This document shows, one piece after another, positions 56,776 to 63,988 of a stretch of 64,000 nt of DNA. The notes beneath the pieces are model-generated. The model searched no databases. It was not told the DNA's origin and saw nothing but the letters and a program-made list of their open reading frames with translations. The stretch covers positions 281,955 to 345,954 of the forward strand of contig JAPYMA010000544.1 in assembly GCA_035041965.1 (NCBI GenBank). Direction: 5' to 3'. How positions within the stretch are numbered: the first letter of the stretch is position 1; the number at the start of each line of letters is the position of its first letter. A program made the translations under genes and the position numbers. This stretch comes from Anisakis pegreffii. Lineage: Eukaryota; Nematoda; Chromadorea; Rhabditida; Anisakidae.

Positions 56776-58371
56776 TGATGTAGTAAATAGTATTCATTGG
56801 TGCGATTGTTTGTCTTTCTTATCATAATATAATTGTCTACTCCATTCAAATAAAAAACAATTGACCTATCTTTACACCATCCGTTCCCAATTCATTATCC
56901 TCATATCAATGTTTGCATATCCCACAATAATGTCTTCGCTGTAGTGCGATTTTGTGTGCATATCTGGCGCAATATGTTGTATATTCTTTGCAAACTTCCC
57001 ATATTATTGTATTTGACATCAACCCGGAGAAATGGATAATTCCCGCCCATCTCTTCGGGTTTGTCTTATAATCAATGCGACAACAATTACCCCCAAGCAT
57101 TGGCTGTGGTCTTCCTCTGATGTTGAACTCAACACTATTTCAATCACATCGCTTTCTCAATGCTCCATTGTGTATTACCAATTTATTCTGTTTTCCTCAA
57201 ATAAACCAATTCAATTTCATTTTGTACATCAGGGTTCATTTTAATTATCATGCACCTTAACCTTACGAATAAATTTGATATTTGTAGTTGTAGAGATATA
57301 CGAACGAAGAAATAGGATCCATACCATCGCTCAGTCGCGATTACCAAATAATCGCGAAGAAGAGCCACATTAAACAATTAGTGCAACAAACAATTATTTT
57401 ATCGCGAAGAAAGTCGCGATAAACATATAAACAAGCTATTTCTGCAACTTGACCCTACCTCTATGCCCACCATCATTTACTTCACACATACAATCTATAG
57501 GCCACTCGCTTCACTTATTCGGAGCAACAACAACCACAACTTTCACTTAAATCTTCATGTGCTATTAAATCTTAAATCTCAAAACCTTTAACCTTAAACT
57601 CTCACTTAATTATATCAGTGTAGTTGTTTAGTCATAATTGTACTTCAATTACGATATAATATTATCTCGCGAATCGCGTTAATTTGTTATGTAATAACAA
57701 TGGTTTAATTACCCAAGTTTGAGATCGTGCCAAATTCGAAGAAAGTGAAAGATTGGTAGCGAACCAATTCCAGAGTCAAATTGCCGATCTCAAACTGGTA
57801 ATCATATCATAAAAATAATCGAAATAATTGGAAGAAATTTCCACAAATAAGACTATTATTGAATAGTCAAATCAAAGTATCTCGCTGTATTGAGATACAC
57901 CAAGTCGATAGGAAAATCGACCATAGCCTTAGCCCTAACCAAAACCCCTTGTCCCACCACAAATAACCCCTAAGAGTGCACTCAACGTCAACGTCCGTCA
58001 CTTGGACAACGAAGGCAACCGCAGAAACAACGGCAGCCGAACTACGACCAAATACTCATCAAATTATAACGTTATCAAATCGATACGTTGGTTTAAATTA
58101 ATTGTTCACAAATAATTGTATTAATTAAATTTACTAAATTGATTATTATTAACTTGTTCATTTACAACTTTATTATTGATTTATTACATTGAAAGTCTAT
58201 AACTTCATAATCTCTTATCTGTCTACACTCTTTATCTCCATTGCGCATCCTCACTATATTGTATAACCACACCCGATAATATTCAAATAATAATATCTAT
58301 TAACATAAAATTTTCCCACACAACAGCGCAAGCAAAACCAAATATTAATTACTATAACAAAAGTAATTACA
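56776..58371 (+). repeat. LTR L1 of a BEL/Pao-type retrotransposon (5' LTR)
   Basis: The start TGATG (56776) is set by homology with L2 (both preceded by TAGCGA). The end TAATTACA (58371) is set by homology with L4 and by an adjacent TGGGGGCTC primer-binding-site-like sequence. Length is about 1.6 kb. Landmarks: a CGGAGA...TCTTCGGGTTTGTCTTATAA block (57030-57070), AAGCATTGGCTGTGG (57095-57109), an AATAAA at about 57199, a palindrome directly followed by SL1 (57685-57723), and ATCGATACGTTGGTTT near 58080 shared with L4. Confidence 0.75.
57685..57723 (+). promoter_or_regulatory. Palindrome plus exact SL1 spliced-leader sequence in L1
   Basis: TGTTAT-GTA-ATAACA (57685-57699) is followed after 2 bp by all 22 bases of the canonical nematode SL1 exon (57702-57723, starts GGTTTAATTA, ends GTTTGAG). 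The next bases are ATCG, so there is no splice donor. CGATCTCAAACTGGTAAT (57785-57802) can pair with the SL1 3' part and the following ATCG. Confidence 0.9.
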
Positions 58372-58400
58372 TGGGGGCTCAGCCAACACGATAGGACAAT
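58372..58400 (+). other. Probable primer-binding site
   Basis: TGGGGGCTCAGCC directly follows the LTR end TAATTACA. A TGG-starting sequence here is what pairs with the CCA end of a primer tRNA. The tRNA is not identified. The gag ATG lies about 115 bp further on. Confidence 0.5.
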
Positions 58401-58487
58401 TCATACAACTAGCTCAGCACATTTAGCTCAGCCACACAAAAAACACTATTTCAAATCCTTCACATCATAAATATAATAGAACAAAAC

Positions 58488-59447
58488 ATGGCATCCTCAG
58501 CTATTAGGTCATCAATCGGTCCATGCAAGAAGCGATTAGTAGATTTCCTGCAAACCGGCTTAACCACATTAAACCTCTCAGAAATTCAAAATTCTCCCAA
58601 TCCCGAGTCCGCGTTACGCGTGGCATACATGGAAGTTGATCACGCGCTTAGACGCTTACAGCAATATGTCACTACGCTGCAAGCCAAAAACACCGAATGG
58701 ATCACGTTGATATCTGGACTAAAGAATCAACAAGAAGCAGATGAAGAAGCCAGAAAATACGAGCTTCATGTGAGTGATCCGGACAATTTTCTCGAGGTTA
58801 TTGAAATAGCCAAGGACCACGAAGTCACATTGGAAAGTCAACTTAAAAACATTACGGCACTACTCGCGCAACGTGATACATGCCAACCAACAACTTCAAA
58901 AGCACCTACTCCTCTGGTGCAACCACAAAATCTCCCAATGCGGTTGCCGCAACTACAAATCAAAACCTTTGATGGAGAAGCAAGAAAATGGCCACAATTT
59001 TGGCCCATGTTTTTAAGTGCAATCGACACTCAACCCTTGACTAAGGTCGAAAAGCTCATGTATCTCCTGCCCTATCTGGAAGGAAAAGCGTTACACGCAG
59101 TGAGTGGATTCACCGTATCTGAAAATAATTACGATACGGTCAAAGAAGTACTCATAAAGAAATTCGGAAATACATCAACAATCGTCAAGTAACTGTATTT
59201 CGAATTACAAAACTGGAAGCCGACAGGACAACAATTTTCAGAAATGATTGCAAACACTGAATGTGTATTGCAACAACTCACCCAACTGGGTGAGAACATA
59301 AACAACGCGCAAACGGAACTCTGTATTGAAAATAGACTTCCGCCATGGGCTCGGCTTGAACTTGAACAAGGAAAAGAAGAGGTCGAGACATGGTCAGTAA
59401 AAATGCTGCGTGATAAGCTAGCAGCAATGGTACGTGTCGTATGCTAG
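58488..59447 (+). pseudogene. Truncated BEL/Pao gag (DUF1759-type), element 1
   Basis: About 320 codons from ATG 58488, in one frame with a single in-frame stop TAA at 59190-59192. The N-terminal 150 residues are helical. A proline-rich linker is followed by LPQLQIKTFDGEARKWPQFW (about residue 150-170) and EKLMYLLPYLEGKA, the signature of the DUF1759 region in BEL/Pao Gag-Pol. The frame runs through ENRLPPWARLEL and WSVKMLRDKLAAM and then ends in L2, so the zinc knuckle and all of pol (protease, RT, RNase H, integrase) are gone. It is non-functional as an autonomous element. Confidence 0.85.
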
Positions 59448-59964
59448 CGAATTGATGAGCCATTATATAGTACTCATTCATGCGATTGTTTATCTCTGTT
59501 ATCTCAATTGCATTAAACAGTATTTGATAGTAAAATTAATTGTTTATCTTCATATAAAAGCAATAGACCTCTCTTTACACCTTCCGCTCCTAATTTATTA
59601 TCCTCATCATAAAGTTCGCTTATCCCAGAAATGTATCTTTGTTGTGCCGATTTTATGTGCGTACCTGATGCAATAAGCGGTACATCCTTTCCAAACTTTG
59701 CATATTGTAATTTTAGTAATCAACCAAACTTCGCATACTGTAATCAATCCGGAGAACCCCGCTCCTCTCTCCGGGTTCGCCTCATAACAGATACCCCATG
59801 TCGCGAAATATCGCGATTATTAAATAAAATATATATCTATATATATGAAAGCACAAAATCTATGATGATTATCATGTGACTAAAAATAGATTGCTCTGAG
59901 TGGGCACAACAAGATATATGAAGTCAACCAATAACAAAATATATGAAGTCATTAATTACATGAA

Positions 59965-60267
59965 GTGATCAATTATATGGCGTCACTTTTACACTTTGAC
60001 TCTTTTAACCAGAGATCACTTTTCAAATGCTTAAAGGACAATCCGCAATTAATTCAAATGCTTAAAGGATTATCGAAACTGGACTCCGATGAATTACGTA
60101 AATTAACCATCTCGGTGTTCAGAGATCGTTTGCCCTCACTAATCTCGACTAAAGGATACCAAAAGTACCTTTGTGAAGAGAACACGTTCGACCACGTCAT
60201 GGGTCATCATTATAAATGCTTAACGTTCAAAGTTAATCAGATAACTTCGGCATTTGTAAACTCATGA
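59965..60267 (+). CDS. Open frame of about 100 residues inside LTR L2, function unknown
   Basis: An uninterrupted frame lies in a block of L2 with no counterpart in L1 or L3. The first ATG is 59977. The predicted product is polar and helical (KCLKDNPQLIQMLKGLSKLD, then ELRKLTISVFRDRLPSLI) and does not look like AT-rich noise. No family is recognised. It may be a relic of host or element coding sequence captured in the U3 region. Whether it is expressed is unknown. Confidence 0.3.
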   Translation: MINYMASLLHFDSFNQRSLFKCLKDNPQLIQMLKGLSKLDSDELRKLTISVFRDRLPSLISTKGYQKYLCEENTFDHVMGHHYKCLTFKVNQITSAFVNS

Positions 60268-60487
60268 ATCGAAGATCACCACGCCTATTTCCTAACGTAT
60301 AAAAGGATGAAGCTGGAACAACTACTCCATCTTGTGATCAGTGATAAAGTTCAATTTATTCCTTAAAGTTAAATATCTGTTTTAAATATCGTTTGCCATA
60401 TAAACTAGAAAACGTTCGCTCATGTATGTTAAAGATTATTCGCATATATATATATTATGATGTTATACCTATTACGCGCTCGCATTA

Positions 60488-60525
60488 TATCATGTTGATA
60501 AAAGGTTTAATTACCCAAGTTTGAG
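60488..60525 (+). promoter_or_regulatory. Palindrome plus exact SL1 sequence in L2
   Basis: TATCA-TGT-TGATA (60488-60500), 3 bp, then an exact 22-nt SL1 (60504-60525). It is followed by TGTAC, not an immediate GT. TTGAGTG (60521-60527) pairs with CACTCAA (60578-60584), and CCAA with TTGG (60590-60593). Confidence 0.9.
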
Positions 60526-60769
60526 TGTACAAAACAAGGAGCGATCCGTAAACCTCTACCCAGAGACAGAAAAAGAGCACTCAACCAAATTGGACCAGAA
60601 ACAAGACGTTGGCCAGGCGAGGACCTAACGAAATATACAATCAAATCAACTATACCGCGTGGCATAAAAGGGCGAGCAAAAAAAGGAACCACCGACCGAC
60701 TGTACAGATAGGTTGTTTAAAAGTTACAACCCGAGTGGAGAAATGGAAAAGTTATAAAAACCAACATAA

Positions 60770-61650
60770 CACCCCAGGGTGACGAATATCAAGCCCAAGC
60801 AAAGGCTGTGGGCATCCCATCCCCTCTGAGACCTCCCATCAATCCGCTCTTCGAAGTGTGACAACAATCAACCCTAACCAACGGCTGTTAGCCTTCGACT
60901 TCCAATCAACCCATCCCTTAAGTGACAATTGTTTGCATCATCTTATTGTGTTCTTCTCTAATGAACGTAATCAATCCAATTTCTTATCTTGTTCTTGTTC
61001 GACATGGAGCATCTAGAAGCCGCTAACTCAGTCGTCTCGCCGCAGGCATCAGTAACTGTCGGGAAAGAATGGGACAAAATAGGCACGGATTCAAAATTTA
61101 AACAGTAAACAACAGCAGGAACCAAATCTCGTAAACACCCGATAAATGTCCTCAAGACAGGATCGATGATGGATAGTTCTTCTCGAATGGTACGGACTGT
61201 CTCGAAGTCAAACGCGACAAGCCTCCCAACGAAAGCGGTATTTAAGGACGGAAATGAACAACAAGCTCTAGCCGATTGTGATCAGTGATTCTTCCTATGT
61301 TAATGTTCACTTTATACGTCCTCATTCCGCAACTTTAAAAGCTTATAATCTACGATATATTATGTTAGATCGCATTCGCATAGATCTTATGCTTATTCCG
61401 TATAATAGGCGCTCGCATTATTTTATCATGTTGATAAAGGTTTAATTGCCCAAGATTGAGTGTCCAACAAACGACAACGAACGATCCACTATATCGAAAG
61501 CAACAAGTGGTCGACACTCTTACAATTGAACCTGACAATAACGGCTGACGAACGAAACCAAAAAGACTACCGCGTGGCATTATATCAGGCGAGCAGAACA
61601 GAGCAAGTAATCATCGACTGTACAGATAGGTTGTTTAAATTAACAACCTG
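60770..61650 (+). repeat. LTR L3 (5' of element 2; left end truncated or diverged)
   Basis: The left part aligns with L4 from the AACCCCAAGC/GGCTGTGG block (L3 about 60795-60815, L4 about 62520-62540). The right part aligns with L2: TATTTAAGG (about 61239), TTGTGATCAGTGATTC (about 61278), palindrome, SL1, then ACCGCGTGGCAT and CTGTACAGATAGGTTGTTTAAA near the end. The terminal GGTTGTT-TAAATT-AACAACC (61629-61648) is an inverted repeat, and TGGACCCAAT after it may be the primer-binding site. Confidence 0.65.
61422..61460 (+). promoter_or_regulatory. Palindrome plus near-SL1 sequence in L3 (20 of 22 match)
   Basis: TTTATCA-TGT-TGATAAA (61422-61438) abuts an SL1 with two substitutions (61439-61460; A10G and T17A). 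GGTTTAATTG pairs with CAATTGAACC (61523-61532, one U-G wobble as RNA), and GAGTGTC (61458-61464) with GACACTC (61513-61519). Confidence 0.85.
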
Positions 61651-61707
61651 GACCCAATAAAATAGTACAACCCATAAACTTTCTATACAGTAACAGCCCA
61701 TTTGAGA

Positions 61708-62385
61708 ATGACTGTTGAACCCTATTTGAACGAATGCACACCCCTATTGGATGATGCAGATTCCTATCTGCAGTTCCACATTGACGAGACGATGTCTCCA
61801 GTGGAACAAATTTCCAGTCTCCAACAAACTAGACGATCAGCTTCCTATGCTTGCGTTTTGTTGAAAGAAAAAGAACAATGTCTCCGCACTTCGTTCGACG
61901 AATGGAAAGATATTATATGTTCGCTATCACCAGAAGATAACGAAGAGACCGTGCACTCGAAATATTCTGCATTCCAAGCTATGAGTGTAAACCCAAACAG
62001 TCTCAGAGCAACATTGTCACACATCACAACAATCATCCACAAACTGCATTTATTGGATGAAGACCTCCATGATCTTGAAGATCAACTTCGCTCAAATCTT
62101 TCCGCCGCACCCAGTCGCCAACTGCAATCCCCAGAATTGTCAGCGACTACAACCCAACAGAGAGCTGAACCGTCAGATGCTCAGCAACAAAGTATTCCTA
62201 TTCAAACTAACCCTTCATCGCATTCAAAACCTGAACCATCTATTAATCAACACCGTCCGTCACAAGTCTCCACTGATGTTTTCATTCAGTCATCTCAACT
62301 ACCAAATACAATCACCGCTCGTTTGCCGCAATTGTAATTGCCCACATTCGACGGCAAACCAGGTGAGTGGTTCGAATTCTGGCAA
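61708..62385 (+). pseudogene. Truncated BEL/Pao gag, element 2
   Basis: ATG 61708 opens about 209 codons to a TAA at 62335, after which the same frame continues LPTFDGKPGEWFEFW to 62385, so the TAA is an internal stop. The N-terminal helical half (VEPYLNECTPLLDDADSYL, HIDETMSPVEQISSLQQ) and a Ser/Pro/Gln-rich linker precede the DUF1759 motif. It parallels element 1 but is strongly diverged. Everything after the motif is lost at the junction with L4. Confidence 0.8.
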
Positions 62386-63988
62386 CTTTCCAAACTTTGC
62401 ATATTGCAATTAATTTTTGTAATCAACCCGTAACTTCGCATATTGCAATCAATCCGGAGATCTCAGCCACTCTCTTCGGGTTCGCCTCATAATACATGCC
62501 TGAGTGTGACCAATGTCAACAACCCCAAGCAACGGCTGTGGGCTGTTTTCTCCAATCAATCCAGCGATCCCTGAAATGACTGTTGTGTGCCATATCAACT
62601 TATTGTTTTTCTCCAATAAAACTATATTCAACCCAACTTTTCTTATTTTTTGTTCGACAGTACGTGTACGAAAAATATTTTCGCAACATGGCCCTACCTC
62701 AATGCCCATTTACAAGTCGTTAATCATAAACAAACAATAAAAGAAACAGCCTTTGTTGTAGCCGTAATAAAAGTACATAAAAGGGCATGATAAACTAAAT
62801 TGCGCCACAATCTGCGATGCAGACAGTACACCAAACTTTATAGTTAAAGCAATATCCAAAATAGCCCTTGTTGAAGCCGTAACGAAGCTAGATCAAAGAG
62901 CATATTACGTCACAACCCGCATGGCAGATATCACACAAACTTTCTAGAGCAATAACACAAGTTCCAACTCTTATCATATAAATAGGATCAAAGTCATGAA
63001 AACATCATTTGTTTCTCTCTTGCAATCTACAGTCCAGTCTCTCTGGTTATTTGCAGCATCCTTTAATATCAATCATTCACCCCACATTTAACTCTTAACA
63101 TGTTTAAATTCAAAATCTGGGTCTTAAAATTAGTTATTCAAATGACGTTGTATATGTGTCTCGTGATTCGCGTTAATTGTGTTATGTAATAACAATGGTT
63201 TAATTATCCAAGTTTGAGATCGTGCCAAAAAATCAGAAAAACGGAAAGATTGTTGGTAGCGAACAACGATAAAATTTCAAGTAGCCGATCTCAGACTGGT
63301 AATTATATCATTAAAATTATCGGAATAATTTGTATTATTCAACTGAAATTGGAAGGCGCCAAATCATTATCGGAGGTAACTATGTAACAAATTAATATTG
63401 TTATTGAACAGTCAATCAAATCATCTCGTACTAAAATACAACGATTCAGCAAAATATGATCGACTAACGTCAAAGTCGTCCGAATCCCACAAACCTAAAC
63501 TCAAACCGTCAACTCCTAAATCCCTTCCACTACCCTTTCCAACCAAACAATTATTCAATTGACTCAAGTGAGTGCACTCAAACTACAACAACGCCGCTCG
63601 GACAATAACGACAAACGCAAATCCGACCAGCATCGACATCGTAACCACAGTGAAAGTCATCGAACAAATTATCGCTATATCATATCGTTATACCCTGTAT
63701 CGATACGTTGGTTTTCTTTAAATTGTTGATAAGCAAACTTTACGCACTATATATTGACAATTTGGCTTGTATATTTATCTCAATTTATTCATTCAATCTT
63801 TTCACTATTCAATGATTTGCACACCATAATCTCCTCTCTGTCTACACTCAATATCCACATCGCATTATATTGTATAATAACACGCGCTGATATTCAAACA
63901 ATAATAACTATTAGCATAAATCTCTCCCACACGACATTACAAGCAATTAAAACAAATTATTAATTACTTCAGCAAAAGAGTAATTACA
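62386..63988 (+). repeat. LTR L4 (right-hand LTR, reaching almost to the window edge)
   Basis: Begins within the LTR at AACTTTCCAAACTTTGCATATTG, matching L2 59690-59712, so its first 230 bp are absent. It then has CGGAGA...TTCGGGTTCGCCTCATAA, GGCTGTGGG, AATAAA (about 62615), TATAAATAGG (about 62977), palindrome plus SL1 (63180-63218) and ATCGATACGTTGGTTT (about 63699), ending TAATTACA at 63988 like L1. The sequence after it (ACGTGTATCATG) does not resemble the L1 primer-binding site. Confidence 0.7.
63180..63218 (+). promoter_or_regulatory. Palindrome plus near-exact SL1 in L4 (21 of 22 match)
   Basis: TGTTAT-GTA-ATAACA (63180-63194), 2 bp, then SL1 with one C11T change (63197-63218), followed by ATCG. 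CGATCTCAGACTGGTAATT (63286-63304) pairs with the SL1 3' half and ATCG. Confidence 0.9.

Follow-up and report, generated by a model that had tools for sequence, protein, structure and literature searches.

Spliced leaders in the DNA of retroelements

The closest described system is that of Brugia malayi, for which 120 integral SL1s were reported, 60 of them within 1 kb of PAO elements, and an origin by trans-splicing was proposed (PMC7181701, available portion). No direct link between SL1 and Pao elements appeared in the available portions of PMC3315495, PMC4558846, PMC12220107 and PMC7652881. The Anisakis pegreffii sequences analyzed here resemble those of Brugia in that the SL1 22-mer occurs outside SL RNA genes and is tied to Pao elements. 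However, SL1 was described as flanking in the available Brugia text, whereas in Anisakis it occupied a fixed point inside paired LTRs. In addition, the Anisakis SL1 was found in many classes, appeared to mark a module boundary together with a motif at about −30, and belongs to an ascaridoid host.

Two other systems are comparable in part. Cer1 of Caenorhabditis elegans is likewise an LTR element of a nematode, and SL1 can occur on its RNA, but the element is of the Gypsy type and its leader is trans-spliced onto spliced RNA; the available portion of the source mentions no hard-coded SL1 (PMC3315495). Dinoflagellate retrogenes with relict spliced leaders show that a leader can be written into DNA via retroposition, but these are gene copies and not part of a replicating LTR (PMC12014239, available portion). 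The Anisakis elements share Peptidase_A17, a DUF1759 gag, TG..CA LTRs and a 5-bp target duplication with BEL/Pao LTR retrotransposons, and differ from them in having a host spliced leader within the LTR.

SL1 copies in the window and in paired LTRs

The window is the whole 64-kb stretch that was analyzed, and its end is also the end of the contig (C400, 345954 bases). The initial annotation had reported SL1 in four LTRs, at matching positions that could not be due to chance. All four places were confirmed on the + strand, with 0, 0, 2, and 1 mismatches in order of position (Table 1), and 100 dinucleotide shuffles gave 0 SL1 matches. Flank alignment divided the copies into two families, A and B, and not one. 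The family A flanks at 57702 and 63197 were 81% identical over 197 columns with SL1 counted in; those of family B at 60504 and 61439 were 84% identical over 80 columns with SL1 counted in, and 78% over 82 columns.

Table 1. Features of the window, with positions counted from its first base.
Feature	Position	Strand	Basis or remark
Putative core-promoter motif, family A: two TCGCG copies, at −35 and −28 relative to SL1	57667..57678	+	Class-level test post hoc
SL1, exact, family A	57702..57723	+	Inferred start of R
Predicted remainder of R with U5 in the family A LTR; last bases ..TTACA	57724..58371	+	
Putative primer-binding site TGGGGGCTCAGCCAAC	58372..58387	+	First 11 bases same as in C130 element
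gag-like ORF, DUF1759 (PF03564), BEL/Pao type	58416..59192	+	E 6e-18
Putative core-promoter motif, family B: CGCGCTCGC from −29	60475..60483	+	Class-level test post hoc
SL1, exact, family B	60504..60525	+	Pattern match
SL1 in the second LTR-like piece of family B, 2 mismatches	61439..61460	+	Pattern match and flank alignment
ORF after second family B piece	61678..62337	+	No Pfam match
SL1 in the second LTR-like piece of family A, 1 mismatch	63197..63218	+	Pattern match and flank alignment; near contig end

We infer that the window copies sit in LTRs because of the family resemblance, the primer-binding-like site and the gag ORF; the paired LTRs that are known belong to five elements in other parts of the assembly, none of which lies in the window. 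The family A LTR would end at 58371, since the following bases begin like the primer-binding site of the paired-LTR element C130. An Anisakis simplex protein matched the gag-like ORF at 95% identity over 91%, and one TAA lay inside the wider domain match. The Pao-type protease domain Peptidase_A17 had no match in the window. The assignment to BEL/Pao was right, by the DUF1759 gag in the window and Peptidase_A17 in the genome.

The five BEL/Pao-type elements with paired LTRs carried exact SL1 in all 10 LTRs, and the two LTRs of a pair were 97.1–99.8% identical. Their LTRs ended in TG..CA, with a 5-bp target duplication in four of the five; in the pair C986, neither the 3′ end nor the duplication was clear. 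The flanks could not be aligned between families, and SL1 was hard-coded at a fixed place in the LTR. Exact SL1 was found upstream of 11 of 56 gag matches and of none (0/56) on the opposite strand, which is the Brugia-type pattern of SL1 outside SL RNA genes, on the same strand and near a PAO element. For nine of 43 Peptidase_A17 matches, an exact SL1 lay on the same strand and no more than 9 kb away; five of these matches had one on both sides. SL1 itself served to find most sites, and its presence in all families is not claimed: among six gag matches without exact SL1 that were checked, five had no SL1 in ~1.9 kb upstream. The protease domains of five SL1-bearing elements compared were only 38–61% identical. 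SL1 elements did not form one clade in the protease tree, with which a single origin is still compatible.

The idea that the SL1 loci are SL RNA genes with inserted LTR fragments was rejected. Four LTR loci tested against RF00198 scored at most 28.7 bits, where the gathering score is 75 and the SL RNA arrays reached 78, and the window had 0 Rfam matches at the gathering score. The host SL1 RNA genes on contig C14 (78 bits) form a tandem array beside 5S rRNA. As in nematode SL1 RNA genes of 5S arrays, the 22-mer is identical and often followed by GT, but the tested LTR loci had neither remaining SL RNA nor a 5S neighbor, with the exception of a junction on C14. Genome-wide, SL1 with up to 3 mismatches gave 200 + 185 sites, compared with 0 + 2 for the reversed pattern. 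The 132 exact sites listed comprised 23 in SL RNA arrays and 109 dispersed ones, and the flanking sequence of 89 of the latter (84 plus 5) was examined. Exact SL1 had 0 matches in IMG/VR and GTDB contigs.

The claim that SL1 was kept while its flanks diverged held for families A, D, and E, in which divergence was lower in SL1 than in either 60-nt flank. It did not hold for family B, with a divergence of 0.099 in SL1 vs. 0.083 in the upstream flank. These samples were drawn by U3 only, and SL1 was inexact at 21 of 53 U3-matched places; families A and B include old copies with 2–5 mismatches. C634, outside the 53, had an LTR-like flank and no recognizable SL1 (best 10 mismatches), which counts against the claim. 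The matches dropped were 3 of 14 in family A (C262, a contig that ends in SL1; C336, a short match without SL1; C634), 8 of 22 in family B (alignments ending away from SL1), 2 of 17 in family D (C1399, sequence not read but exact by pattern search; C917:14-97, short) and 1 of 14 in family E (C1648, sequence not read, SL1 exact by pattern search). The comparison was likewise without C1434_24759 and C289.

The junction of U3 and R-U5

The sites fell into ~20 upstream and ~22 downstream classes with little in common beyond SL1. In the class table, which left out only C637, five U3 classes were combined with at least two R-U5 classes each, and six R-U5 classes with at least two U3 classes each. 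C910 and C130_222660 were 90% identical over 354 nt up to SL1 and had no similarity just after it. C289 combined a family B U3 with the R-U5 of another class, and C361_122113 and C1263 were further recombinants; in all three the break was at SL1.

With SL1 excluded and strong thresholds, one-sided similarity was found at the SL1 split in 27% of pairs (48/178 pairs, 37/67 sites) and in 1–10% at seven splits inside U3; these thresholds were chosen after the outcome of a looser test was known, and the pairs are not independent. The next split after SL1 gave 43%; in families with a short R-U5, the end of the LTR falls within it. In the looser-threshold test, also with SL1 excluded, the SL1 split was no more discordant (0.20) than the other splits (0.24–0.43). 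Neither the C637 minisatellite nor the SL RNA arrays entered the strong-threshold test, in which the C14_3861 junction was kept; the HSP-end, looser-threshold and motif analyses left out the minisatellite and the arrays. The piling up of BLAST HSP ends at SL1 was rejected as proof because SL1 partly anchors the alignments, and the SL1-excluded tests were used instead.

YCGC or CGCG was present at −45 to −25 in 10 of 18 U3 classes and absent from the other eight, compared with a mean of 1.2 and a maximum of 6 in 2000 shuffles; the choice of motif followed inspection of the sequences and a k-mer scan, the shuffle figure is thus post hoc, and the classes may be distant homologs. The recombination boundary, this motif and the two-family split of the window copies had been missed by the initial annotation. 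GT came directly after SL1 in 10 of the 18 classes, which raised the idea of cis-splicing. It was rejected, as a TTTYAG acceptor did not occur consistently ahead of gag (in 2 of 6 elements, vs. 0.2–0.9 expected in each).

Origin and role of the embedded leader

From these sequence comparisons, we consider it reasonably probable that many BEL/Pao elements encode SL1 as a fixed component of the LTR DNA, in which it makes up the first 22 nt of R, and that it behaves as the U3/R boundary with modules recombining exactly there, a property that is new here. Pol II would start at the first G of SL1. If transcription from the LTR starts at SL1 in this way, the element RNA would therefore bear a hard-coded leader at its 5′ end, and trans-splicing would be unneeded. 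At the first strand transfer, strong-stop DNA ending in SL1 could pair with the 3′ end of other SL1-bearing element RNAs, and this pairing between elements may join U3 and R-U5 in new ways. A trans-spliced RNA was probably the route by which SL1 reached an ancestral element, the plausible origin suggested by the initial annotation and already proposed for Brugia (PMC7181701, available portion). It was probably kept as a useful leader and/or initiator plus common transfer homology; the use as a translation leader suggested by the initial annotation is hypothetical.

It is possible, and proposed here tentatively, that the host spliced leader serves as a universal R, which would supply a host-like leader without trans-splicing and let unrelated Pao families exchange U3 and R-U5 at the first strand transfer, as a shared recombination currency. 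If so, a mobile element has made the host spliced leader part of its own regulatory sequence, its RNA resembles host mRNA independently of the splicing step, and the trading of promoters between LTR families is explained. SL1-primed cDNA libraries and SL1-based 5′ end calls may mistake such elements for trans-spliced genes.

SL1 might instead act as DNA, as an initiator or internal promoter element that came from SL RNA genes and that would set the start site as well. The fixed place of SL1 in the LTR, together with the −30 motif, agrees with this role. In Ascaris, SL RNA genes use the SL sequence as a promoter element; our literature search found no paper on such a promoter role in Ascaris. 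However, an SL RNA gene and one LTR family had no upstream similarity (C14_3861 vs. C15_69986 and C986_4260), and this reading, which we find rather doubtful, is compatible with a start at a DNA-encoded SL1 and hence hard to separate from it. A passive fossil, a single old capture copied on without function, would account for the loss of SL1 from old copies (those of families A and B, and C634) and for family B, in which SL1 shows no excess conservation. Such a fossil is very improbable, given exact SL1 in elements so different in protease and in ~20 U3 classes, and its lower divergence than both flanks in families A, D, and E.

SL1 could also be renewed in each cycle. In that case, RNA starting upstream would undergo trans-splicing where the embedded SL1 ends in ...TTTGAG, and reverse transcription would restore the host SL1 in both LTRs. 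The exact SL1 in every LTR of the five pairs and its terminal AG fit this idea; Cer1 spliced RNA exists with and without SL1 (PMC3315495, available portion), and trans-splicing was inferred by the Brugia authors (PMC7181701, available portion). However, the −30 motif suggests a start at SL1 and so no outron. GAG is a poor splice acceptor. C49 and C201, separate insertions whose sequences part after the LTR, share the same SL1 with one mismatch; the variant therefore seems to be inherited, which argues against renewal, and we consider renewal unlikely. The shared SL1 variants of C702 and C11 were dropped as a likely segmental duplication, because the repeat in C702 begins 42 nt before the likely LTR start. 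An equally unlikely explanation is that the discontinuity at SL1 reflects ectopic genomic recombination or assembly joins at a repeated 22-mer, not strand transfer. In its favor, SL1 is the exact point at which an SL RNA array passes into an element at C14_3861, and contig C262 ends inside SL1. However, the swapped pieces have diverged since: C910 and C130_222660, at only 90% identity, are therefore not fresh joins.

SL1 copies in the window and in paired LTRs

The four copies of the 22-nt spliced leader SL1 (GGTTTAATTACCCAAGTTTGAG) reported in the window by the initial annotation were all present, and none occurred in 100 shuffles. The window reaches the end of contig C400 (281955–345954; assembly 122.66 Mb). 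Two LTR families, A and B, carry these copies. The only match of the gag-like ORF was an Anisakis simplex protein (95% identity, 91% of length), which points to Anisakis or a near relative within Ascaridoidea as the host. The two LTR-like pieces of family B lie in tandem, 935 nt apart. The end of the window seems to hold adjacent broken insertions and not a single element.

Positions of SL1 copies and other features (in the window unless a contig is named)
Feature	Start	End	Description
SL1, family A	57702		exact
gag-like ORF	58416	59192	DUF1759 domain
SL1, family B	60504		exact
SL1, family B	61439		2 mismatches
SL1, family A	63197		1 mismatch
L060 (contig C637)	826	1112	minisatellite

Five elements had LTR pairs of 455–1275 nt whose two members aligned with 97.1–99.8% identity, and all 10 LTRs contained an exact SL1. 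Four showed 5-base target duplications (AAGCC, ATAGG, CTCAC, and CAGTG); in the fifth, on contig C986, the LTR end and the duplication were ambiguous. The distance from the end of SL1 to the LTR end was 37, 37, 46, 695 or 821 nt. An exact SL1 was located within 2.5 kb upstream of 11/56 DUF1759 matches on the same strand (0/56 on the opposite strand) and within 9 kb of 9/43 Peptidase_A17 matches, on both sides in five.

SL1 is absent from part of the Pao elements. Five of six gag matches lacking an exact SL1 had no SL1-like site in the ~1.9 kb upstream (best 6–10 mismatches), and for the sixth the SL1 copy, with 2 mismatches, lay at a distance of 2.4 kb. The protease domains of five SL1-bearing elements shared only 38–61% identity, and seven such elements did not group as one clade in a small tree. 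A single origin may be compatible with this protease tree.

Genome-wide distribution and conservation of SL1

With up to three mismatches, SL1 was found at 200 + 185 sites in the whole assembly, and the reversed pattern at 0 + 2. The genome-wide sorting proposed initially gave at least 132 exact sites, comprising 23 in SL RNA arrays (11 read, and 12 on contig C1485 assigned by regular ~559-nt spacing alone) and 109 dispersed (flanks read for 89; one array junction and one minisatellite included). The array units on contig C14 scored as 5S rRNA and SL1 RNA (78 bits; gathering 75); such scoring was absent at the four LTR loci tested and in the window. C1485, with 12 exact copies ~559 nt apart among those listed, is a second likely array, and a Pao gag match lies ~4 kb behind the last listed copy. 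The minisatellite comprises 31-nt units, each an SL1-like 22-mer plus ~9 nt, with an exact SL1 in one unit.

The conservation sample was gathered with U3 pieces alone, so that SL1 played no part in the choice of sites, and 32 of the 53 matches readable at the SL1 place had it exactly. The claim that SL1 was kept while its flanks diverged held for both flanks in families A, D, and E and failed for the upstream flank in family B, in a comparison where U3-based finding favours that flank. Between families the contrast was far larger, though most such sites were picked by SL1.

Mean pairwise divergence of SL1 and of 60 nt on either side; windows are sliding 22-column windows below the SL1 value
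Family	Exact SL1	SL1	Upstream	Downstream	Windows
A	5/11	0.097	0.214	0.269	7/121
B	4/14	0.099	0.083	0.289	60/121
D	11/15	0.032	0.104	0.107	1/121
E	12/13	0	0.028	0.069	0/118

Exchange of U3 and R-U5 at SL1

Comparison of the flanks showed that swaps fall exactly at SL1. The sites C910_45910 and C130_222660 shared 90.4% identity over 354 nt, reaching the base that directly precedes SL1; just past it no similarity was found, and the next match was at +738. Downstream, C130_222660 matched C98_4921 (76% over 865 columns), and the C910 site resembled C130_141526 (67.5% over 280). Contig C289 combined the U3 of window family B with the R-U5 of C657, and C361_122113 combined the U3 of C361_118977 (91.5% over 365) with the R-U5 of C383_15435 (98.3% over 118).

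Similarity confined to one side was scored at splits along the LTR, under strong thresholds and with SL1 excluded. Such pairs made up 1–10% at seven splits within U3, 27% at SL1 (48/178 pairs, 37/67 sites), and 43% (54/127) at the split after SL1, where short-R-U5 families have their LTR end; beyond it the count was 0/42. With looser thresholds, which were tried first, the SL1 split was not prominent (0.20 vs. 0.24–0.43 elsewhere). When 119 of 120 sites, SL RNA arrays and the C14 junction included, were sorted by flank similarity (threshold 0.5), 20 U3 and 22 R-U5 classes occurred in 30 combinations. Five U3 classes were combined with two or more R-U5 classes, and six R-U5 classes with two or more U3 classes. 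Since the sharing goes both ways, rates that differ on one side cannot account for all of it.

At C14_3861, the upstream sequence was identical to the SL RNA array over 2.6 kb, and past SL1 followed an element body that matched C15_69986 at 97.9% identity across 1500 nt or more. The two were joined exactly at SL1, and the element's own U3 was absent. This would be expected if the array had recombined with DNA starting with SL1; an assembly join is also possible.

Proposed start of R and possible inheritance of SL1

Ten of 18 U3 classes had a YCGC/CGCG motif beginning between −45 and −25 relative to SL1 (mean 1.2, maximum 6 in 2000 shuffles); the motif was picked from the sequences themselves, which makes this comparison post hoc. 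Core promoter elements commonly lie at such a distance. On this basis we infer that the first G of SL1, or a base close to it, is the transcription start, where R would begin. The first strand transfer in LTR replication joins R-U5 of one RNA to U3 of another; with R starting at SL1, this step would be a natural source of the swaps.

Renewal of SL1 by trans-splicing was also considered. Contigs C49 and C201 share a one-base SL1 variant, and their LTRs agree (93% over 308 columns). They look like separate insertions because the sequences diverge past the LTR; a third copy, on C1576, tracks C49 beyond that point. The variant was either inherited or arose twice, the chance of the latter being ~1 in 66 by our estimate with one random change each. 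This one case therefore speaks against obligatory renewal. A DNA-encoded SL1 that begins R and bounds the exchange appears to be the best overall explanation, held with somewhat better than even confidence; this was lowered slightly in view of the post hoc choice of motif and of C634, which has an LTR-like flank and no recognisable SL1 and stands against it.

The literature check suggested initially showed that SL1 with nematode Pao elements had already been described: the available text of a Brugia malayi study reports integral SL1 adjoining PAO elements and also a trans-splicing origin (PMC7181701). SL1 as the start of R, the −30 motif, and module swapping at SL1 were not found in the available text of open-licence literature, which may lack older studies of SL RNA promoters and of nematode LTR elements.

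GT directly followed SL1 in 10 of 18 U3 classes and at 42 of 84 exact dispersed sites, resembling the SL RNA donor site. Two loci on contigs C770 (L145) and C1701 (L146), ~90% alike, share an SL1 variant followed by GTAAGC. Short pieces of them had no Rfam match, and they may represent a further leader-like gene or an LTR class of their own.
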